From: Sclerodactyla briareus
Taxonomy: Eukaryota > Echinodermata > Holothuroidea > Dendrochirotida > Sclerodactylidae
DNA length: 64,000 bases
NCBI GenBank assembly: GCA_026419785.1
Contig: JAODTK010003998.1
Location: forward strand, 62,001-126,000
Direction of reading: 5' to 3'
Shown here: positions 2,815 to 63,700 of the stretch, piece by piece
How positions within the stretch are numbered: position 1 is the stretch's first letter
Layout of the letters: each line of letters starts with the position of its first letter
Made by a program: the position numbers and the translations under genes
Notes under the pieces: model-generated
Seen by the model: the letters and a program-made list of their open reading frames with translations, nothing else
Database searches by the model: none
What the model was told of the DNA's origin: nothing

Positions 2815-3265
2815 CTAGACTGATCCGGACTTGATCAAGATAAGCATTGTCGACTTAACATGATTTACAACCGATTTTGATAACTGGACTTTTGACCTGG
2901 GTTGAATTCGATGACCTTGGCCTGATCCAGAAACAAAGTATAATGTATTCATTATGTGGAACCCACTATCAAATACGAGCTCAATCCTCCAGGTGGGGTC
3001 GAGCTTTGCTCTTCCTATGCTAAAGTTGGCCAATATATCGACTTTTCACAATGTCCCCATGTTTCCCAAAAAAGACCTCTGGTTTGCACAAAACAAATGG
3101 GTTCTTGTACTCCCCATAATGGAGTTACTCACCAAATTCAGCTTGTGATTGGGCTTATCCTTTCACAATATTTTCAGACCTTGACCTCCATGACCTCAGA
3201 TGACCTTTGACCTGACCCAGAACAAATAGGGATCGTGTACTTCAAGTATATCTCCATCCATCCAA
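2815..3265 (-). repeat. Two degenerate units of a half-site-bearing satellite family, inverted relative to the 36-kb array
   Basis: The better unit (about 2,980-3,260) reads caggtggggtcgag at one end and carries four TGACCT half-sites at 3,182-3,187, 3,191-3,196, 3,201-3,206 and 3,208-3,213, followed by gaccc and a ccatccaagtgg tail. On the minus strand this matches the array at 36.2-37.5 kb (ccccacctggatgga, gggtcaggtcagaggtcatc, ctccccat/atggggag). A second, worse unit lies at about 2,815-2,980, with ttgacctgggttgaattcga and gatgaccttggcctgatcc. Order and spacing of landmarks agree, so common origin is clear although divergence is high. The open frames at 2,954-3,210 are by-products of the repeat. 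Confidence 0.75.
3182..3213 (-). promoter_or_regulatory. Four AGGTCA half-sites: DR1, DR4 and DR3
   Basis: On the plus strand TGACCT occurs at 3,182, 3,191, 3,201 and 3,208; spacers are cca, caga and t. Read on the minus strand this is AGGTCA-a-AGGTCA-tctg-AGGTCA-tgg-AGGTCA, which contains the same DR1+DR4 core as the 36-kb satellite plus one extra half-site at 3-base spacing. Confidence 0.6.
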
Positions 3266-7150: not shown

Positions 7151-8310
7151 GTATTATTTCTAAACAGCCTTCATCATTGTCACCGATAGGCTTAGCTTTG
7201 TCATTAACTTACCGGCGAAAACTCACCCCGCATTTTCTGTAAACCTAGGGTTTGTTCTGTAGTTTGGCCTGAGCGGCTGGCAACCTCACGGTTTCGAGTA
7301 ATGCAAAAGTTTCTCCCTGTCACCAGGCCTTATCTGTTTACCACTGGCGTGCGTCGTATGCGTTGCACAGTCAGGCAGTTGCACATTACGCCTGTGCTTG
7401 AGCCTACTTACGACTCTTTGCCACTGGTATGCATGTGACCATCTCGCCACAAACTGGTTTTTGTCATTGTAAAATAACTTTCTCTGCTTTTTTGCCCTCC
7501 AAAAGCTTACTATCGATTCGTCGGTATTTTCTATATTTATCAAGCAGAATGTATTTCCTATTTACTACGATTTTCCCTAAAACGATTATAAATTGACCCG
7601 TTCGTTGCCTAACGTACACAGCCAATGGTAATTGCTACATACGCTTCGATCTTTTGGGTGCACTTCCCACCATGCACCGCGAGTTCAATTGGCTGCAAAA
7701 TACAGAGCTGATCTTCAGTCTATCATATGTCGATGTCGTAGCCGGCCAGGGATGTTGTCTACTCCACGGTTGACCAGGCTTCATTGGCTTCTATTCATTT
7801 ACATTTTCGACACTGAAAAATGAAAAACTAAATGTCCTTGCATTCATAGCAGTTAGATTGCGCCATGATCAAACGTGTTTTTTAAAACATGTCTCGAGAG
7901 ACTCTCGCCCTAGCTCGTGAACCGTCAAACCGATGCCAGCAGACACGTATAGGTCAGATCCAAATGGATCGATAATTAAGCCGAATTGATTGACCATAAA
8001 TTCCACGGTCAATTTGATCGCGAGGAGCAGCCTCGTTTTGAGTTGTTTTTGTTTTCTTCAACGAAGACAATTTTCACTTATTTCCAGATCGTGACCTATC
8101 ATCCCGGGATTGAGGTTGCCTAAATTACTGGCTGCGTGTTGTGTGAGTATAAACTCGGATCAAGATGAGATAACACGTTATATTTTTACACTACTCAGTT
8201 TTTTTCTAGATAGTCTTGATGTTTAATTGCGACTGTCTTGACTACACACAACCTTATCGCGCTTGGTAATTTTTTGTTGTTTTTTTGTTCGCAAAGATTG
8301 GAATTCCGTA
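7151..8310. other. Unassigned CpG-rich DNA
   Basis: CpG frequency rises sharply here compared with the block to the left. An 85-codon minus frame (7,286-7,543) is followed downstream on that strand by cgccggtaagt (about 7,210-7,220), a good splice-donor match, but with no acceptor or recognisable protein this may be chance. Confidence 0.3.
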
Positions 8311-30320: not shown

Positions 30321-30322
30321 GA

Positions 30323-30534
30323 GGAAGTATGGTCGTCAGGTTTCCAATCTTTACACACTGCAGGGGTGATTGAAGTTTCATTGCTGGCGAAATGCTGCGG
30401 GTAATCCGTACATCTTTGACCCCACCTGGAGGAAGTATGGTCGTCAGGTTTCCAATCTTTACACACTGCAGGGGGAAGTTTCTTGTCTGGCGAAAATGCT
30501 GGCGTGTAATCCCGTAACATCTTTGACCCCACCT
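30323..30534 (+). repeat. 108-bp tandem duplication
   Basis: ggaagtatggtcgtcaggtt begins at 30,323 and again at 30,431, and both units end in catctttgaccccacct. Unit 1 is 108 bases and unit 2 about 104; they differ by a few indels in the middle. The duplicated CKDWKPDDHTSS in the 140-codon minus frame (30,209-30,631) comes from this repeat. Confidence 0.9.
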
Positions 30535-33090
30535 CGACAGCATAACTGTATTTTGTAACTCTTTTGTCTTGATTATTGCACTTCTTAAGGGTGTTCGTCA
30601 AGGTTGTCCATCGTACTTCTGACATATTCATTTAATAATCTTAACTCAATAACCTATGCGTTTTCGAGTCGAACGAGACGTTAAAATGTCCCATATGCAA
30701 AGAGATAACGGTCATCAAAACTGATGGTTCCTTTGAATCCCTTTCTGAAATAATTCTATGCTGCAAACTTTTCATTCAGCTTCTGGTGTTCGGGTGAATT
30801 TACATAAATATTGTTTTTTTCCTTATTATGTCCAGTTGTAACTAAGTATCCAAACTACTTCAATAATTTTGCTTCCGAAGAAGATGTTTCCCTTCCCGCC
30901 TAATTTACGCCCCAAACTCCACGCATAAAAAAAAACTCACAGTTCAAGTCTGTTTCCTTTTCCTCGCGAGAAACTGTTTTTTATTAAAACATATGCAATA
31001 TCACAGTTTGGTATGAATATGACAGTTTTTATCTCTCTACTCCTCCGCCATCCTTTTTCTCCCAATTGAATAAACGATTCTATAGTTTATTCGCAATAAC
31101 TAGCGGGAAAAATCAAGCGTACGTTTCTAATAAACGTAAGGAAAACGGTTGTTGAGATGATCGATAGTTCTACTCTTTGCTCAACAAAACAAAATTTGGA
31201 ACGACTTGGATGTAAGGTGTTTTTACTGACAATTGCCATCGACGCTTTAAATTGTTGTTCTGTGTTGCTCTTAAAATATATGATGGCGCAATTTTTTTTT
31301 TCCACGTATTTTGCGAAAGGAGATTTTATTACAACCAATTACTTTATGAATCGATTCGTGATGCTTGGTCGGATGTCCACTACTTCCTACCGGGTTCGAT
31401 ACCTCGATCGGTAGTTGTAGCCTAATAACTACTGCCACTGTCTAATATACAAATCAAATGATCTATGCAATGGGTTGAAACGCACAATGCGGATCGAATA
31501 TCACATATTTTGTTAGGGTCTAGGACCGAACAACTCGTATGAAAATTTCATAACACGTCATGGTTTATTGAGGTATTCCCCATTTCTTATTATAACCGGT
31601 ATAGTTTTTCCGCAATTCATGACATTGGTTAAAGAAATGTACTAACTGTGAATCCTCAATGAAAATGAACGAAATTTATCAAAATTCTCTTCTGTTCATT
31701 GATTGAATATTCAAATACCTCACATATATTACTAAAGAGAGAGTCTCTACCCCGTGCGGTTGTCAGGTGGCAACATTTGTAATCTGGAAAAGGCAGGCGT
31801 TCAGCTGGCAGGAAATTTTACTTCATTAACGTCGTTCGTGACAGAAAACAATTTTTTCAGTTTTCGTTTTTTATTTATAGAATTCTGGGGTCAATGAATT
31901 CTTTTCCGAAATAAGTTGATTGATTCTCCTTCTTGTGTTAACGGAAATGAGTCATTAGATCAGTTATTACCTTCAAATTTTTGGGCTGGTGAATGAACCT
32001 TACTCCATTACTGAATTTAGCCCGATTGGTTTCATAGAAAATTCAAAGCATCCTACTTATGCCATCGTTATATAATTTCCGGAATTTGTTCTGTTATAAT
32101 TTGTATTTTACCCTATTATTAGGAAGACATACGTGATTCATTATACATAGTAATAATAAAATGAGATGGGAACAATATCGAACATAATGTGGTGTTTGTG
32201 TGAGTAATTGCAAGATGTTAGTAGTATTGGCAGTAATTGTGTTTTATCAAGTTCTAATGGCCGTACGATCGGGTATAATTATTATTTGAATGCGGGCGGG
32301 GGAGATTCTTGTTGATTGATGGCGACATGGGTTACCCTCCCTAAAATTGTGTGATTTCATTGGAACCGATCAGTGTACGTCATATAGGTCTACGAAATTA
32401 TTATTGCTGCTGCAATGGTCAGGTTCAGTCATGAGGCGAGGGGGGGGGGTGGAATGTGGCTGATTCCCCCCCGTTCGTATTGCTAACACCTCGATCACAT
32501 TTGGTTAAATTTGATCATAACTGGTAGAAATTTGAAGAAAAAAATCACTTGCTCTCTCCTGATTATTGTCTCTGAGTTTGTTCTTGGCTTTCTGTAATGA
32601 ATTTTTGTGCTCGTCCACCTGGATGTGTCTCCTCCCGGCAGTCATTGAACTAGGACAGGGCCCCCCCCTTCCTGCATGCCAACACATTATCCTTATTTTC
32701 CTATATGTGTTCGCTATATGTTAACTAGCTCTATTGCAACAGTGCCATTTCTGCGAAGAAAAATACGTGATTGGTCTGTAAACTTACAGTGTGCGAACCA
32801 CTCCTCGAATGATGAAGGTCACGGTGTAATTACCGTATTCGGACCGCGCTGCTGGCTACATATGGTGATAATCGTCTATTCACTACAGATCTCACCATGA
32901 AAGCAATTACCTGATTACGTCTTGACAGGGTCTCCACTAGGTATGACGCCTGTCCACTTCCAGAAGATACAATATTTGAATGTTCTCCACTTACTACACA
33001 AATCATGCACCAGTCATCGCCATCCAACACCAGTGCGATCATCAAAGTAAAGATGGCGTCATCGTGGCAAGCGTAGAAAACTGTTAAATC
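30535..33090. other. Unassigned AT-rich DNA
   Basis: No frame above about 85 codons until 32,830-33,207 (125 codons, minus), which is mostly antisense to the start of the L2-type relic. A short poly-G run (about 10) lies near 32,440. Nothing else is visible. Confidence 0.35.
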
Positions 33091-36205: not shown

Positions 36206-36310
36206 CTGGCTTGTGAACACAATACTCGACCCCACCTGGATGGATGAAGCTCATACTTGGTACGATGGTGTGTTCCCCTGATGAGTACATGAACTATATG
36301 TTTTGGGGTC

Positions 36311-36333
36311 AGGTCAGAGGTCATCTGAGGTCA
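36311..36333 (+). promoter_or_regulatory. AGGTCA direct repeats, DR1 plus DR4 (dimer 1)
   Basis: AGGTCA at 36,311, 36,318 and 36,328, with spacers of 1 (g) and 4 (tctg) bases. This matches the consensus for nuclear-receptor heterodimer or homodimer sites (DR1: HNF4/RXR/PPAR class; DR4: TR/LXR class). Sequence match is direct; binding is only inferred. Identical modules lie at 36,619-36,641 and 37,202-37,224. Confidence 0.6.
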
Positions 36334-36618
36334 CCAGAGGATAAAGTCTGAAAATCTTGTGAACACGATAAGTCCAGAATATTCGGTCTGATCTGGTGGA
36401 AATTTGATGTGTAGCTTTCTTATGGGGAGTACAGGAACCCAATTGTTTTTTGGTATAAGTCGGAGGTGAATTTTAGTCAAAAGAGAAAAGTGGTGAGAAG
36501 ACAATGTTTAGCCATTTTAGCTTGTGAACACGATAACTCGACCCCACCTGGATGGATGAAGCTCATACTCGCTGTGTTTTTCCATGATGAGGACATGAAC
36601 CCTATTGTTTTTGGGGTC

Positions 36619-36641
36619 AGGTCAGAGGTCATCTGAGGTCA
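36619..36641 (+). promoter_or_regulatory. AGGTCA direct repeats, DR1 plus DR4 (dimer 2)
   Basis: AGGTCA at 36,619, 36,626 and 36,636 with spacers g and tctg, the same arrangement as in dimer 1. In dimer 3 the first half-site has become AGGTCC (36,894-36,899), leaving only the DR4 at 36,902-36,917. Confidence 0.6.
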
Positions 36642-37201
36642 CCAGAGGATAAAGTCTGAAAATCTTGTGAACACGATAAGTCCAAAATGGTTGGTCTGAT
36701 TCTGGTGAATTTGATGTGTAGCTTTCTTATGGGGAGTACAGGGACCCTATTGTTTTTGGTATAAGGCAGAGGGGTGAATTTTGGTCTCAAATAGAAAATT
36801 TGTGATGATAACTTGACCCCACCTGAATTGGATGAAGCTCATACTTGGTATGTGTGTTCCCCATGATGAGTACCTTACTAGATTTTTTGGGTCAGGTCCA
36901 GAGGTCATCTGAGGTCACCAGAGGATAAAGTCTGAAAATCTTGTGAACACGATAAGTCCAAAATGGTTGGTCTGATCTGTGGAAATTTGATGTGTAGCTT
37001 TCTTATGGGGAGTACAGGAACCCAATTGTTTTTTGGTATAAGTCGGAGGTGAATTTTAGTCAAAAGAGAAAAGTGGTGAGAAGACAATGTTTAGCCATTT
37101 TAGCTTGTGAACACGATAACTCGACCCCACCTGGATGGAGGAATCTCGACTTCGTATGTGTTTTTCCATGATGAGGACTGAACCCTATTGTTTTTGGGGT
37201 C

Positions 37202-37224
37202 AGGTCAGAGGTCATCTGAGGTCA
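37202..37224 (+). promoter_or_regulatory. AGGTCA direct repeats, DR1 plus DR4 (dimer 4)
   Basis: AGGTCA at 37,202, 37,209 and 37,219. The final partial dimer instead has AGGTCA at 37,472 and 37,483, a 5-base spacing (DR5, retinoic-acid-receptor class) produced by sequence change downstream. Confidence 0.6.
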
Positions 37225-37500
37225 CCAGAGGATAAAGTCTGAAAATCTTGTGAACACGATAAGTCCAAAATGGTTGGTCTGATCTGTGGAAATTTGATGT
37301 GTAGCTTTCTTATGGGGAGTACAGGGACCCTATTGTTTTTGTATAGGCAGGTAGGGGTGAATTTTGGTCGAAATAGAAAATTTGTGATGATAACTTGACC
37401 CCACCTGAATTGGATGAAGCTCATACTTGGTATGTGTGTTCCCGATAATGTTCCTGAACCCTATTGTTTTGAGGTCACCTAAAGGTCAAAGTCTGAACTT

Positions 37501-45600: not shown

Positions 45601-46204
45601 TATAGTGGGGCGGTTTAGCCCAAAAAATTCAAGAGGATGGCATTTTGGATACAAGCACCAAATTTGGCAACACATGTATATTGACATGTTGCGAACATAT
45701 TAGATATGGGCCACGCGGAATTCTCTCTTTTATGTACGCCATATTGGATTTCAAAATGGCCGCCATCTGAAATCTATATTTGCGATTATCTCTGAGTCAA
45801 ATGTGTTATTGACTTCTTTTTGGTGTCTAAAAATGTTTCTGGGGGCAAGGAAGCCAATGGTAACATCTGAATTGCGGATTTGCACCGATGGGCCGCCATA
45901 TTGAATTTCAAAATGGCCCCCATTTGAAAATCTAGCCTACATTCGCGAAGTATCCTGGGTCCAAAATGCTATATTTACTTCATTTTGGTTGTCTAGATGT
46001 ATGTTTTGTGGGGGGCAAGGAATTAATGGCTAACAATTCTGCCATTGCGTCTTTTAACCAAAGGGCCGACCATATTGGATTGCAGAATGGTGCAATATGA
46101 AATGACCATTGCGATTATCTCTGGTCAAATGCTGTTTTGACTGTCTAAATATATGTTTTTGGGGCAAGGAATCCAATGGTAAATTTAACAATCAAATGCC
46201 AAAT
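45601..46204 (+). repeat. Left inverted terminal array, three units
   Basis: After the outer 110 bases (agcaccaaatttggca at 45,653), units are marked by gccatattggatttcaaaat at 45,738, 45,895 (gccatattgaatttc) and 46,069 (ccatattggattgcag), then gcgattatctctg, a tgtctaaa segment, and ggggcaaggaa..ccaatggtaa. Period is about 155-175 bases. Units carry CCGCCAT/ATGGC motifs such as aaaatggccgccatct at 45,753-45,768. Confidence 0.88.
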
Positions 46205-46299
46205 CCGTGCACAATTCTGAGGTCCGAGGGGGCTGCAGCCTAGTAAGATGAGGTGAGGTATTATCAGTACGGAAGTAGGGTACATAAACCGTGTCAGTT

Positions 46300-49050
46300 A
46301 ACCATGTCAGCCACTGCACAAGTATATGCATGTGGACTCATCGTATGTGCAGTTCCCTTCCCCACACAAGAGGGCTGGGGACTGAAGGGCCGCCTACCTT
46401 GGGTTCTGCATGCTCCACACACCCTTCTTGGCAATTGCAAAGTAACCAGGCTCAAATGCCAGCTATCAGCTGCTTAGGTAGCCTGGTCCGGTATGGGATG
46501 TAGTGTCCTCCAGTCAGGACTACCCCAGTCGAGTGGTGGAGGGAGCTCTGGGCTGTAGCAGTTTCTGACTCCCACCATGTCACCTTGATCACTGGCCATA
46601 CGACATGTTCCTCTGAAGCTGCTTCGTTGGAGTGATCAGCTGCACATCGTTCTTCTCGCGAAGAGTTTCCTCCTGGCCGTCTGAATGTACGTGCATTTGC
46701 TGGTTAGTTCATATAACAGGATCACGAACCTCTTGATGATGCGCATTGCGTCGGTTGTATGTCACGTGGTGCGGAGATCAGCGGCAAGCAGCCAGCAGTT
46801 GGTTCTTGCAATACCGTCCGAATGTCCACGTGTCTTCTTGCCATGCTGGCAAACTGGACACAGTGTCGCATCCTGTGAGAGCCAGAAACATTGGCAGGCA
46901 CGAACCTTCTCTGTACCAGTGAGCTGCTATACGTGTGCTGTTAGGTAGTGGATCTTAGCTGTTCCGAATGCCAGCCATAGTTTGTTTTCTGGTTGCAACT
47001 CCTGTACCACGGACAATCCATGCACCACAACATCGGTGTTTACAGTCTCGATGGCTTTCTGGTTTTCATGGCGTGTGGCGTGGCAAACTCGTTGGTTACA
47101 TTGGGCGAGTGAGGGTGGGGGCAGATCTGGTATGCGGACTTGCATGAGCACCGCCTCTCCTCATTTGCTTGCCATCCTGGTCCAATCATTCCAGATATCT
47201 GCGCTGATAGGAACCTGAACAAATCGGTTCTTGTTGCTGTCCACTCGTATGAAGTTCTGCCAGTTTTCTTGGTATGGCTGTGGTGGCCACCACACGTCCC
47301 CGCAAGGTAGTATCCCAGACCCAGATCATTCGTGACACTGTTTGCAGCTTGGTTAGGTATATGGGCTTAAGATCTGATGTGCTACTCTTTGCACAAGTCC
47401 TCCATACAGCCGCTTAGCATCTTGACGATGCTGCTCCATCAAGCACTATACAGTAGTGATACATCTCTGTCTTGGCGTTGGAGACTTCTTCCAAGCATGT
47501 GATGAGATAATTCTCGGTACCAGTGACGGGTTCCCACCAGCAGACTGCAGGATGCATTCCTGTTTTTCATGACGACGAACTATTTAAGGTTTCCATCCTC
47601 GTCTGGGCACTATCGGTCATTTCCTTGTACGAGGCGTGGAACACCTTTCAGCTTGTTACGAGGAATGGGGTCGTCCAATACTTTGTTCTTCAACGACACT
47701 CTCTGGTGGAAGCCTCAACTGCTCTGGGCCAATCCCTCGTTCGCATTCTCACGTCTCCCCGGCCCACCTGTACCTGCGGATTCCTCCGTGTTCCCGAGTG
47801 ACTAATTGCCCAGCTCTCTCATGACACCGACAGAAGGCGAACATCTTTCACAGATGAGGCCGTACCCTTGGCTCTGATCATGATGACATGTGTCTGCTGT
47901 TTGCCGTCACCAGTATTGGTTCCCGTCATGGAATTCTTCGCTCACCCTGACACTTCTGTTCCCGTAACTATCCAGCGACAAGGGCATTAAGGTTGTCAGT
48001 GAGCTCAACTGCGCAACCGTCTCCTTTGATGCAGGATTATTCTGCTCATATGCCTGGTCAATCGGGATTGAAGAGAACACCCTCTGGGTCTTCTTACCTG
48101 TGAAATGGCCTCTACTGCAATTTCTTGGCTATTATGATGTTTTGGTATTGAGTTCGGCCATTCCTTCAGGTGCACTGTTATCAACATAGCACGTGGGTAT
48201 GATCCATGTCAAAGCATCGAGGTACATCATCCCGATCCCTTGCCTGAGGAACGCACAGACACCAGAACCAACAGTTCTAGTTCCAGCCTTTGTTTGCCAA
48301 AAGCGAACTGGTGAAGGAGAGGATGATTGTTCGCGTCTTCCGCGACATCAGTCTCCACGGCAGGAAGTCCCCTGCTTCCCTGATTTTCCCCAGCCAGTAA
48401 TGGTTGTAGGCATGGTCTTGCAAGATGCACAGTGCTGCTGCGTCCACTTTGATGTGCCCCTTCTTGTGCACAAGGCATGAGATGCTCGCAGAAGGATTCT
48501 GCTGTCGCCTGCTGTGCAAATCTCGGCCTGCACAAGTTGCGTGCACCCAGCCGTCCCTTGCAGGCCAGCCCCCCATGCAGTGTTTTCAGTGCCGCCATCT
48601 CTGTGTGGAGACCCTCAAACATCGCCACTATGTGGTCTTCACCATAACTCTCTGGCCACTTCCACTATCTGTTGGCCAAAGCAACATTGGCTTGATCCAG
48701 GTGACCACTGGTGTCTTCCGGATTTAGGTTTTCTACAGCTTTCCTCACCAACGTCTATTGAATGCCGGATCATGACCACAGTGTGGGTAGCTTTCCGGAA
48801 GATTAGAAGAAGCGACGTAGGCAGATGACTCTAGCATCTAGTGGCTGGGGGGTTGGCTGGCATGAAAATAAATGCAGCCCAAGAATCATGTTTTTCATTG
48901 CCCATGTAACAGTGTTTGTCTTCCAGGACTTGGTTTTGCATTGCTTAGCCATTGATATTCTTCTCAGTATGCTGTTTGCAGTTAATAGTGCGAGAGAGGG
49001 GCGCCAGCCTTGACCTGTGTACCCCAGATTCTCCAGCAACGACGATGCTC
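46300..49050 (-). pseudogene. Decayed gene of an uncharacterised invertebrate multi-copy protein family (DTDVVV / ALTGCDTVS)
   Basis: Collinear minus-strand blocks, N to C: RLELELLVLV (about 48,260-48,290), VHLKEWPNS (about 48,150-48,180), FSSIPIDQAYEQNN (48,035-48,080), IKGDGCAVELTDNLNAL and RWIVTGTEVSG (47,953-48,033), VLDGAAS (about 47,425-47,447), LQTVSRMIWVWD (about 47,310-47,345), NFIRVDSNKNRF (about 47,220-47,260), VNTDVVVHG (about 47,015-47,042), LWLAFGTAKIHYLTAH (46,945-46,993), LPMFLALTGCDTVSS (about 46,850-46,905), RFVILLYELTSKC (about 46,695-46,735) and LPPPLDWGSPDW (about 46,515-46,550). Order and spacing agree with full-length members that I know only as 'uncharacterised protein' in cnidarians, molluscs and echinoderms. 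Frames shift between nearly every block and stops are present, so no product is made. The gene fills the element interior in one direction, arguing that it is the element's own cargo. No catalytic assignment is established. Confidence 0.8.
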
Positions 49051-49116
49051 CGATTTATTCCTTCACCAGTGTAAGAAGGATGAGGGGGATCGCGGTACCA
49101 GAATGCCATATTTTTT

Positions 49117-49801
49117 TTATGCGTTAACAGGTAAGGGAGATTGACAAGCGGCCCTGTAATGTAAAGCAATACTCCCATATGGCGGCTCATTTGTAAAAAT
49201 ATGCTGCAGATTGTCACTATTGGATTCCTTGCCACCCAAAACATACCATTTTAGACACCAACATAAAGTAAATAGCAGCATTGCCCCAGAGAAAATCGTC
49301 AGTGTAGATTTCGAATGGCGACCATTTTGAAATCCCATCTGGCGGCCCACTGGTAAAAATATGCAATACAGATTGGTACCATTGGATTCCTTCCCCCCCC
49401 CCCCAAAAAAAAACTACATTTAGACACCAGATGAATAATAGCAGAATTTGACACAGAGATAATCGCAAATGTGGATTTCAAAAGGCGGCCATTTTGAAAT
49501 CCCATTGGCGGCACCTGGGAAAAATATGCGTGCAGATTATTAACCATTGGATGCCTTGCCCCCCAACATACATTTAGACCTCAAATGGAGTGACAGTAGC
49601 AGTAGTCGGCCCAGAGATGATCGCAAATGTAGATTTCAAATGGTGCGGGCCATTTTGAAATCCAATATGGCGGACACAAAGATAGAATGGTCCGAGTGGG
49701 GCCAATATCTGAATATGTCACAACATGTCAATATACAGTGTGCCAAATTTGGTGCTGTTATCACAAAATGCCCAATAGGTTTGCTATGCTGCCCCACTAT
49801 A
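49117..49801 (-). repeat. Right inverted terminal array, four units
   Basis: Reverse complement of the left array. Unit marks ccattttgaaatcc lie at about 49,319, 49,489 and 49,649, with a degenerate fourth at about 49,148-49,195 (catatggcggctcatttg). ccattggattccttgcc, gtctaaa-complement and gagataatcgcaaat landmarks repeat with a period of about 168. The outer end contains tgccaaatttggtgct and caacatgtcaatata, matching the left end inverted. Confidence 0.88.
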
Positions 49802-58841: not shown

Positions 58842-59530
58842 TTGGCAATAGAAAAAATAAGAAAATGATTTGCAGTGAGATATGGATATTATTCATGTCA
58901 TAGTGGAGTCACGGAGGGGGACTATGGTAATACCTGTGGGGGAAAACTTCATTGCACTCAAAAAAGTTAGCAAACCAAGATACTGTCGAATTTCCCTAAC
59001 GTATATGTCCTTTGAATTGTTCATGTGATATCGGGGGACATTTTCACACTAATGCACACTGCTTAGGAAGGTATTGTCTGATTGACTAGTGGCATTGTAT
59101 TGTAACTATATACTATATTTTGTTGTGGTTGGGGATCAGGATTAAAGATTTGAGTTAGTGTAGACAACATCAGAGGTTCTTGGCAATAGAAAACATAGAT
59201 TTGCAGTAAGACTATGGATATTATACATGCATAGTTGAATTCACGGAAGGACCCATGGTATATCTGTGGGGAAAAGAAAATCAATTTGGATCTTAAACTC
59301 AAAACAAGTTTAGCCATACCAAGGATCTGTCGAATTTCCTTAACTTGTATGTCCTGTGGATTGTTCATGTGGATCGGGGGACCCATTTTCACACTAATGC
59401 ACACTGCTTCGGAAGGGTTCAATTTCTGATTGACTAGTGGCATTCATTGTAACTACTATATATTTTGTTATGGTTGGGGATTCCGGATTAGGGATTTGGG
59501 TGTTAGGTGTAGACAACAACGGAAGTTCTT
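58842..59530. repeat. 338-bp tandem duplication
   Basis: ttggcaatagaaaa starts at 58,842 and again at 59,180. Shared landmarks in order: gatttgcagt, tatggatatt, gaatttcc, tatgtcct, ttgttcatgtg, ttttcacactaatgcacact, gattgactagtggcatt, tggttgggga and tgtagacaac. Unit 2 ends near 59,530. The copies differ by many small indels, so the duplication is not recent. The 126-codon minus frame (59,063-59,443), in which MPLVNQ appears twice, is a by-product. Confidence 0.92.
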
Positions 59531-60790: not shown

Positions 60791-63700
60791 GGTGATGGAA
60801 TAGCGTACCCGTTCGGTCGATCCGTCAAAAGAGGCATTACTTGAACCACCTCAAATACGCACTTCATATTCGAGAATCGAACGAAAGTCATACAAACTAA
60901 ATGTAGCAGATCGCCGTCCTGTGAAATCGAAACCCGACGACTCGGTTTACTCAGCAATCTTCCAGTTTCGAGTCTTCCAACACGGGAGCACGTACGAGGG
61001 GGAGGAATTATCGAGTGGAGCAGATCGATTATATCAGCATTTTAGGGTTAGGAACTTGCATGTTGCTCATTGAGGACATCCATCGAGCACCCCAAAATGC
61101 ATACGGGAGTAAGCCCGACCACCTCATTAGCACTACGGCATGTTTTTTTTTTTATCAAGGACAAGGTAGTCACGAATTTTCGGATTTCTGAATCTTTACC
61201 GGCCCTATCTATAGACAAGACATCCAGACCTCGGAGGGGCTGCATATCTTGCATATCGAGCTAGTAGATTTCAACCATTCTCCAAAAATGATCCGTCAGT
61301 GCGATGGGGATAAGATGGGCAGCACGTCGTAGCAGAATACCTATGTGTTAACAGTACGAGACATTTATTATGCGAGAAGAGCAGGAAAGCGTATTATACA
61401 CTAACGAATTACTCATCTCTCCCTCAGTGGGTATTGGTCCCCCCTGGTACCATTTCACGATAGGAGTAGCTACATGAAAATACGACATAGTGATGCGAAT
61501 GTATTTGTGGTCGATCCTAAATACATGCCTGATTATTCTAACCATGGTGAAGGCAATGTAAGTGCCCCCCACGTCGGTTATCACACAATAACACAAATTA
61601 CGCGCAACATTCAGTACAATTGCTGATGTGCTTTAGGAAATATCTATACGGCACTATTGACAGGCAGCATACCCTAGTTTCTACGCCCACCTACTGCAAG
61701 TCGTTTGTTGGATATCGTTTGTGAAAAAGTTTAACACGTTATACTTCCCAATTGCTAACTCGGTCACAGTACTCGGGGTACTTGGGACAATGTTCGGAGG
61801 TTAACATTAAGTACTTGTAAATGCCATAGCCATTCTCGAAGAGAAAAAAGGGCCACATGGAGCACATAGAATAAACGACCCACATGAGTGTTTTTCCGTT
61901 ATGTTGAAGTTCATGCTGTGAACCGCTGTGTTAAAACGGTAGGAGGGTCTTGCACGCAGCTGGGGAAGCTGATCAACCTTGGTGGATAGACCAGAGGTGA
62001 TGGCGCCGTCGTAACCTCACTCCTTACATGGGTTTATAGTTATAATAAACTAGGATGCGAGGTAAGCATAAAACAGGGCTATCCTGCATGCATGACGCTA
62101 CCAACAGCAAACCAACAGATTTGTGTTATAACATGACAATGTTACATCTATTGAATTATGACAGCCTCAGACGATATGTCTGTCAGATATTAGAGGCACC
62201 AGGGCGAACGTGGGCACCGTAATGAGCTGTGGGGCAACATCCTGTGTACTGCGTTTCAAGACGAAATGGCAAGAACATATATAGGTAGCGTTGTCATTGT
62301 ATATAAATTAGTGTATTATTTCTCGAAGCATACCCACAAGTTCTTAAGGGTCACGGACGAGTGAGTCACTCGTTAATTTCGACGCGAATTTGTTTCTGTC
62401 ACGGTATGACAGCCATTTGGCCTTCGTGGAAAAGTTGAAGGTGCTGGCGTTGTAACACCCCACTAGGTAATTGTACTTACATCAAGCTTACGCTGCTGCT
62501 ATTCACTGAAAACGTGAAATGAATATATACATTTTAGGTTCCATTAAATCACGAAGATTACCGTAAATTCATGGGGTTTTATATATTCAAATAGTTCGCT
62601 TGTCCTTAACTCATTGTTCTACGAGGTTGTTGCACTGTACGAAGGACATTTACATGTTTTTCGTTGCTCTCCAAGATTAGTAATGAGCGTTGATAATGCC
62701 TGATATATTAAGCTGGCTGTACCAATCGTTAAATGTAACATGCCTGTTGTAAATTACTTGGTCTATTGTAAAATGAATAATTGACTACTGCTCGAACTCC
62801 CACGCTGAATGTATAGTTGTATTAGCAGTGTCATCATTTTCAATTTCCCATCTAAAATGCCACGGCAAGCTGATGGAATAGTTGACGTCATTGCTATGGG
62901 AAATGAAGGAGGAGTATTACCGTAAAAATCAGAAAAACAGGTTGTTATTTGATTGAAAATTGTACCTCTAATCTTCACCCATGCAGTTGCAATAGTTACA
63001 TTCTGGATGCTGCACTGGCGGACGCCAGTCCGATTGGTTTGTGCCTCCAAAAGACTATTTCAGATTGAAGATAGGATTGATAGGTAGCTCCGAGAATCTA
63101 ACTTTGATGGCCTATTTGGAATATTAGTACCTCGGACCTGTTTCTAATTTGGAATAGCGACCTTCTGGATACTGATCACAATAACTCCAGTTTTGTTGAT
63201 AAGGGTACCCGTCAGTTTGAAGCCCATCGGAAGAATCACATCTACCTACTTACATAGTGCATACCACATGATTGCCTACCCTCACCGCATTGTCCTACTT
63301 TTGTCTGAAGTTTTTTTCTTTTCTCCGAACATTATATAGCCTGGGAACACACAAATCATCCAAAGTAGAGAAACGTTATAACTGTGCTATTTACTATTAT
63401 CAAACACACACCATTTGATTCTGTATATACATCAAACTGAAAACACTGTTTCACCGGTTGCATTCAATCCAGCCATTCGAAGTAGCCCTCCGATGTAAAA
63501 ACTTTACCCCTACATCTCATGTACCTTGTAAGTTATGTCTCGGCGGGTTGCTTGTATCACGGTGTTCCATAGTGGAACCACAGTCACTAACACACTGATG
63601 ATCGTTTTTCGCCCATTCCTCATGTGAGTGGTGGAACAGAAAATGTGAAGCTACTCGTCAGATGCTTGGACATTATATCTGGAGGCGCACGTCAATAACC

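Follow-up and report, generated by a model that had tools for sequence, protein, structure and literature searches.

What is a decayed gene doing between two inverted repeats in a holothurian genome, and could its product be the enzyme that moves them? The question is raised by a feature at positions 45,604-49,798 of a 64,000-nucleotide stretch of Sclerodactyla briareus DNA (assembly GCA_026419785.1, contig JAODTK010003998.1, forward-strand positions 62,001 to 126,000), which as a whole we call the window. An earlier note, made from the sequence alone, had proposed that a protein family marked by the block ALTGCDTVS is at least in part encoded by a DNA transposon, and that the protein may be the recombinase of that transposon. 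Our analysis indicates that the feature is probably an old, dead copy of a eukaryotic terminal-inverted-repeat (TIR) DNA transposon carrying its own transposase gene, a reading that we hold with good, though by no means complete, confidence.

Inverted arms and the gene between them

The boundary of the element, AGT...ACT, was set by comparison with its other copies. Both of the inverted ends from which the earlier note had started, tatagtggggc at 45,601 and gccccactata finishing at 49,801, were found in the window, the true boundary lying within three bases of them. Positions 45,639-46,180 and 49,216-49,772 align in inverted orientation over 580 columns with 73.3% identity (254 bits, E 1e-68); as controls, 20 shuffled versions of the region (two-base blocks) gave a minus-strand self-match of 35.6 bits at best, and 12 further tiles of 8 kb from the window an inverted pair of 47.3 bits at best. 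The multi-unit inverted arrays described before could be resolved into two arms, each about 580-630 bp long and composed of three units of ~160 bp (about 155-170 bp), with AGTGGGGC at the arm start. No Rfam match at gathering scores was obtained anywhere in the window. The parts of the element are the following:

45,604-46,184, plus strand: left inverted arm, lying 3' of the gene, with three units of ~160 bp, beginning AGTGGGGCGGTTTAGC
49,173-49,798, minus strand: right inverted arm, lying 5' of the gene, with three units of ~160 bp, beginning inward AGTGGGGCAGCATAGCAAAC
46,205-49,160, minus strand: decayed single gene, in changing frames
48,578-48,664, minus strand: block WKWPESYGEDHIVAMFEGLHTEMAALKTL
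48,036-48,080, minus strand: block VFSSIPIDQAYEQNN
47,023-47,040, minus strand: block NTDVVV, proposed (by inference) as the D.D metal site of an XPG-like nuclease
46,856-46,882, minus strand: block ALTGCDTVS, proposed (likewise by inference) to form the helix-hairpin-helix of an XPG-like nuclease and to supply its last acidic residue
46,330-46,470, minus strand: decayed C-terminal cysteine cluster, for which a CXC-type reading is possible in relatives (L034: RCGCKTGCRGRC...ALCQCGGQCSE)

Between the arms the motif pieces follow one another in collinear order on the minus strand, the frame shifting from piece to piece, and stops number 22, 32 and 42 in the minus frames across 46,150-49,160, which bears out the one collinear, decayed minus-strand gene of the earlier note. 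Its motifs, too, could be located in the window, ALTGCDTVS at 46,856-46,882, the DTDVVV block as NTDVVV at 47,023-47,040, and DQAYEQNN near 48,040. The window copy would have inserted long ago and then decayed without selection.

Copies in the genome and what they share

All copies described here come from one genome of 319,486,128 bases in 3,171 contigs. With the left arm as query, at least 21 matches were found at at least 12 places, and 11 of these besides the window were examined as stretches of 7.5-9.9 kb. The arms might have turned up apart from the gene in all other copies; instead, whole or partial gene sequence accompanies them at nine of the 12 places (window, L014, L015, L017, L018, L019, L020, L021 and L023), with only a 3' gene piece at one (L016) and no gene sequence at two (L022 and L024). 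Among seven arm-bounded copies the 1.9-kb outer flanks are mutually unrelated, the left flank of L014 in this comparison falling partly within its enlarged left arm. The element's end nearer the 5' end of the gene has the sequence AGTG(A/G)(A/G)GCAGCATAGCAAAC and the opposite one AGTGGGGCGGTTTAGC, and the orientation of the gene relative to these two unlike ends is constant in seven copies (window, L014, L015, L017, L019, L020 and L021); the exception is L018, both of whose ends are of the 5' type. Two-ended gene-bearing copies measure 3.5 to 5.8 kb. Their inverted pairs score 111 to 434 bits in 10 copies (window, L014, L015, L017, L018, L019, L034, L035, L057 and L058) and 347 bits in C2287, and the gene-poor L016 scores 360; the score is 0 at L020, L021, L023 and L059, 37.4 at L036 and 47.3 at the cut L056.

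Two of these copies have peculiarities of their own. In L018 (G000:C2876) the outer flanks, at about 1907-2301 and 7239-7618, are mutual inverted copies (79% over about 400 bp) reaching the element ends, and this locus is either the centre of a palindrome or a copy with longer ends. In L014 (G000:C2768, 713-2920) a left end lies about 1.5 kb beyond the left arm units, so that this copy has an insertion or an enlarged arm.

The opposite search, in which gene fragments served as protein queries and the arms were ignored, gave at least eight places and then at least 11 more, at least 19 in all; four of the 11 were examined in full, and seven as 3-kb loci scanned for the known arms and for inverted pairs of their own. 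Arms stand on both sides at nine of the 19 listed gene places (window, L014, L015, L018, L034, L035, C2287, which equals L056 plus L075, L057 and L058), a single arm is in view at three (L020, L045 and L048), one (L036) has a weak inverted pair of 40 bp with the end AGTGGGG, and six show none. Five of the 19 had already been met in the arm search; in the remaining 14 the corresponding counts are five, two, one and six. Within this one genome, then, the gene is bounded by inverted ends at nine of 19 listed places, as the earlier note had suggested examining, and the idea that a DNA transposon encodes the family gains support from these nine places and from the unrelated flanks of the seven arm-bounded copies.

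Five of the places (L034, L035, C2287, L057 and L058) form a second lineage, with the same gene and with inverted arms of its own, whose ends read AGTACGGCAGATAGGTGAAA; the ends of L036 read AGTGGGGTCTTTTAGTGAC, and its inverted pair, at 37.4 bits, is not above the window background. DNA alignment to the window element at E 0.01 gave nothing in L034, L035, L036, L057 and L058, 20 bp at the arm motif in C2287, and 45 bp in L059. Although the DNA is nearly unalignable, the protein pieces match between the lineages. The gene is accompanied by inverted ends in two lineages that are clearly separate, and probably in a third. The element has inverted repeats at both ends, recurs as one unit at unrelated genomic sites, and holds between its ends a gene conserved as protein (in matches chosen by protein similarity), as a TIR DNA transposon does.

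The manner of this conservation can be read from the codons. Between lineages, identity at codon positions 1, 2 and 3 amounts to 59.6, 69.6 and 34.4% over 1,949 aligned codons, and the sense strand was matched in 57 of 57 cases (between lineages, with sense-frame queries only). A third-position value this low is what coding constraint typically produces, pointing to protein-level selection on the gene between lineages. The window copy and L014, compared over 679 codons, give 64.4, 63.2 and 59.4%, a flat pattern as expected for two copies that would have been decaying unconstrained.

The arms of both lineages also share a short motif, GGCGGCCATTTTGAAA (16 bases, up to two substitutions allowed). 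It occurs five times in the window, always within the arms, where 0.06 occurrences would be expected:

45,749-45,764, minus strand: arm motif, exact
45,906-45,921, minus strand: arm motif, 1 mismatch
49,317-49,332, plus strand: arm motif, 1 mismatch
49,484-49,499, plus strand: arm motif, exact
49,645-49,660, plus strand: arm motif, 2 mismatches

In the 13 stretches scanned, all 40 motif matches (overlaps counted) fall inside arms, in 12 copies belonging to the two main lineages, with none outside arms and none anywhere in L036. The motif was chosen after inspection of the arms, and its confinement to the arms of the first lineage is therefore partly a matter of choice; its occurrence in the second is more independent. 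We infer from this distribution a putative transposase binding site. The core of the motif is also similar to the binding site of YY1, a host factor, so that binding by a host protein is possible.

Target-site duplications were sought at nine lengths (2-10 bp), the ends of L015, L019, L034, L035, L036 and L058 being placed by judgement, and L016, L020-L024 and L059 being excluded from the counts for missing end(s) or AT repeats at the ends. Over 12 copies, several with ends so placed, agreement at 5 bp is 28/60 (permuted mean 16.2, p 0.001) and at 6 bp 27/72 (p 0.004); in the six clean-ended copies the values, with nine lengths tried, are p 0.033 and p 0.128, respectively. The 5-bp pair of L017 (AGAAC) is perfect, and L018 and L034 agree at 4/5 positions.

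The protein and the nearest known kinds of element

Pieces of several copies give as the first blocks, in order, one with TPLPIY and AAVDNIDHNPSSTSAHDSFHGTGISLFQHP, then PVLTCDQSLYTLAKPIQWSWPTSYGEDRFIVLFGGLHIEM, ALDHTHYSRW and AFSAVAIDQAHEQNNA.VKGDGGAVGLTE; the later blocks are, in order, VEVTIFDGAA.INMLRP, LDIVWDLYM, HEEADTR, TVDTDVVVLA, FHALTGCDTVS.F..RGKKTAW and RCGCKTGCRGRC...ALCQCGGQCSE. In the run from FDGAA to RGKK the acidic residues are ordered as in an XPG/FEN1 nuclease, and the likeness to the FEN1/XPG (Rad2) family extends over E.D ... D.D ... G(C/S)D ... GKK/GPK. Eight read-through pieces were combined into a profile and set, with hhalign, against one built from human FEN1 and 14 relatives. 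The best alignment lays TGCDTVS...RGKKTAW on the FEN1 hairpin GSDY...GIGPKRA, in the hairpin register, with a score of 26.4 (P 0.0063), which none of 300 column shuffles reached (largest 24.9); the reversed profile scored 14.5. The reading of the C-terminal half as an XPG/FEN1-like nuclease is in our view moderately supported. The cysteine cluster at the C-terminus we take to be of the CXC type, a name for which Pfam gave no match, and a Pfam scan of the N-terminal read-through pieces for a DDD/E transposase domain, at E up to 10, gave nothing.

Outside the host genome, no relatives were confirmed in viral contigs, in a phage set or in contigs of prokaryote genomes. Five pattern matches (L001-L005) were rejected as relatives, looking unrelated once translated, as judged by eye. 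One contig titled Crocinitomicaceae bacterium (L061, JAGYIR010000010.1) holds a flap endonuclease 59% identical to a human FEN1 piece; this flap endonuclease looks eukaryotic and suggests contamination or transfer.

The nuclease of the Academ lineage AcademX is of the XPG type, and AcademX is the likeliest home for our element, which we file as a TIR DNA transposon, membership in AcademX being unclaimed. We see about an even chance that the element simply belongs to lineage AcademX of the Academ superfamily, and that the proteins with this pattern are unannotated Academ transposases; such an origin is compatible with its being a TIR transposon with its own transposase. In the passage of PMC10045372 drawn on here, which says only nuclease, AcademX and AcademH are told apart by nuclease versus helicase and by duplications of 3-4 versus 9-10 bp; a passage of PMC9587614 counts Academ among the superfamilies with DDD/E transposases; and in part of PMC10294476 an Academ expansion in bivalves is described, together with curated Academ elements of a mollusc library that average 5,565 bp. 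Compared by these descriptions only, element and AcademX are both eukaryotic DNA transposons, the moderately supported XPG-like pattern in our gene would have its counterpart in the nuclease ascribed to AcademX (PMC10045372, in part), and the sizes are similar (3.5 to 5.8 kb against the mean given in that part of PMC10294476). The 3-4 bp duplications of AcademX (same passage of PMC10045372), however, are not seen here, where there is a weak 5 bp instead, although the copies are old; Pfam recognised no DDD/E domain; and the XPG_I model matches no element copy. AcademH shares the superfamily with AcademX, but its helicase is unmatched here in the Pfam scans and its 9-10 bp duplications (that passage again) show no excess, decay weakening both comparisons.

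Kolobok elements such as KolobokE and KolobokP pair their transposase with an added nuclease and have 5'-RR...YY-3' ends, according to the part of PMC9587614 used here, and the AG...CT ends of our element fit RR/YY. By description, which is the only basis of this comparison, Kolobok differs in its other nuclease types and in making TTAA duplications, whereas TTAA stands beside an end in 0 of our 12 copies. Less likely, and put forward only tentatively, is a distinct superfamily, defined by AGT ends, 5-bp duplications, ~160-bp subterminal units with a 16-base binding motif, and an XPG/FEN1-like nuclease and CXC-type cluster in a single protein, to which the unnamed animal ALTGCDTVS proteins would belong as transposases. 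In titles and abstract openings, with subscription papers outside the scope, we found no published link between this protein pattern and transposons, and none of the papers covered contains both Academ and XPG as whole words, which is not evidence that such a link is unpublished.

A probable transposase of the element's own

The presence of the gene between inverted ends in two separate lineages makes its product most likely the enzyme that moves the element. On the sole gene seen between the arms, its protein-level constraint and the XPG/FEN1-like C-terminal pattern, taken together, we base the view that the product is likely the element's own transposase or recombinase. The recombinase of the earlier note is likely on this indirect evidence; its nuclease side finds no match in PDB or Pfam, and the XPG_I model misses the copies.

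Several points weigh against our reading. Stops and frameshifts break every copy translated, and the codon-position matches were chosen by protein similarity, a bias toward positions 1 and 2. The nuclease profile was built from read-through pieces whose frames were picked by the analyst; its match to FEN1 covers only 37 columns, with an hhalign probability of 6% (2.6% against human FEN1 alone), and a forced global alignment of the two failed. No such nuclease turned up in PDB profile searches run to E 10, the weak PDB chains listed standing at E 0.36 or worse, and no Pfam family reached cut-off for any piece (sub-cut-off listings PF07773, E 0.18, and PF13225, E 0.04). Run against the host genome with an E limit of 10, the Pfam XPG_I model matched one place on another contig (C44) and no element copy, which slightly lowers the odds of the reading. 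At six of the 19 gene places arms are not visible, five of these having been viewed over only 1.5 kb each side and L059 over 7.5 kb. As for the short target duplications anticipated by the earlier note, the weak 5-bp excess (p 0.001 on 12 copies, 0.033 on the six clean ones) is at most a hint of them; no excess appears at 2, 3 or 4 bp in the 12 copies, the clean six give nothing beyond 5 and 6 bp, and the window copy matches at only 1/5 positions of the 5-bp pair.

Could the gene instead be a captured host gene or other passenger, its arms belonging to a non-autonomous element moved by some other transposase? The arm places without gene sequence (2/12), or with only a 3' piece of it (1/12), speak for such an origin, but two lineages whose DNA is nearly unalignable hold the same gene between their arms, a recurrence that one would not look for in a passenger, and no second gene was recognised there, though decay limits its detection. 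We therefore regard a passenger gene as improbable. That arms and gene are unrelated neighbours, joined by chance or by segmental duplication, is hardly credible, since it has in its favour only the 6/19 gene places without arms in the stretch examined, against both arms at 9/19, unrelated flanks in seven copies and 12 control tiles without such pairs.

Other repeats lie elsewhere in the window. Direct copies of a repeat unit occupy 36,209-37,477 and 2,910-3,241, with up to 93.6% identity over 652 columns and an inverted relative about 33 kb off. At 58,842-59,530 a stretch of ~340 bp stands twice in direct tandem (78.6% identical), and at 30,321-30,537 two adjoining direct copies of ~110 bp (87.7% identical) fall within a minus-strand open frame of 140 amino acids, for which two weak Pfam listings were obtained, both below cut-off.

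If our reading of a transposon with its own transposase is right, the enzyme would bind the repeated arm motif, pair the two ends and cut them. Its XPG/FEN1-like metal nuclease half, with the acids of FDGAA, VWD, HEEAD, DTD and GCD and the hairpin turn GRGKK, would open or trim the ends, and the CXC-type C-terminal cysteine cluster would aid DNA binding. The 16-base motif common to two diverged lineages offers a concrete hypothesis for the binding site, and an enzyme of this kind, joining transposase and XPG-like nuclease, would serve as a test case for the use of a structure-specific flap nuclease in cut-and-paste movement. Moreover, uncharacterised proteins with this pattern would then belong among the mobile-element proteins to be masked, rather than being tallied as expansions of a gene family.

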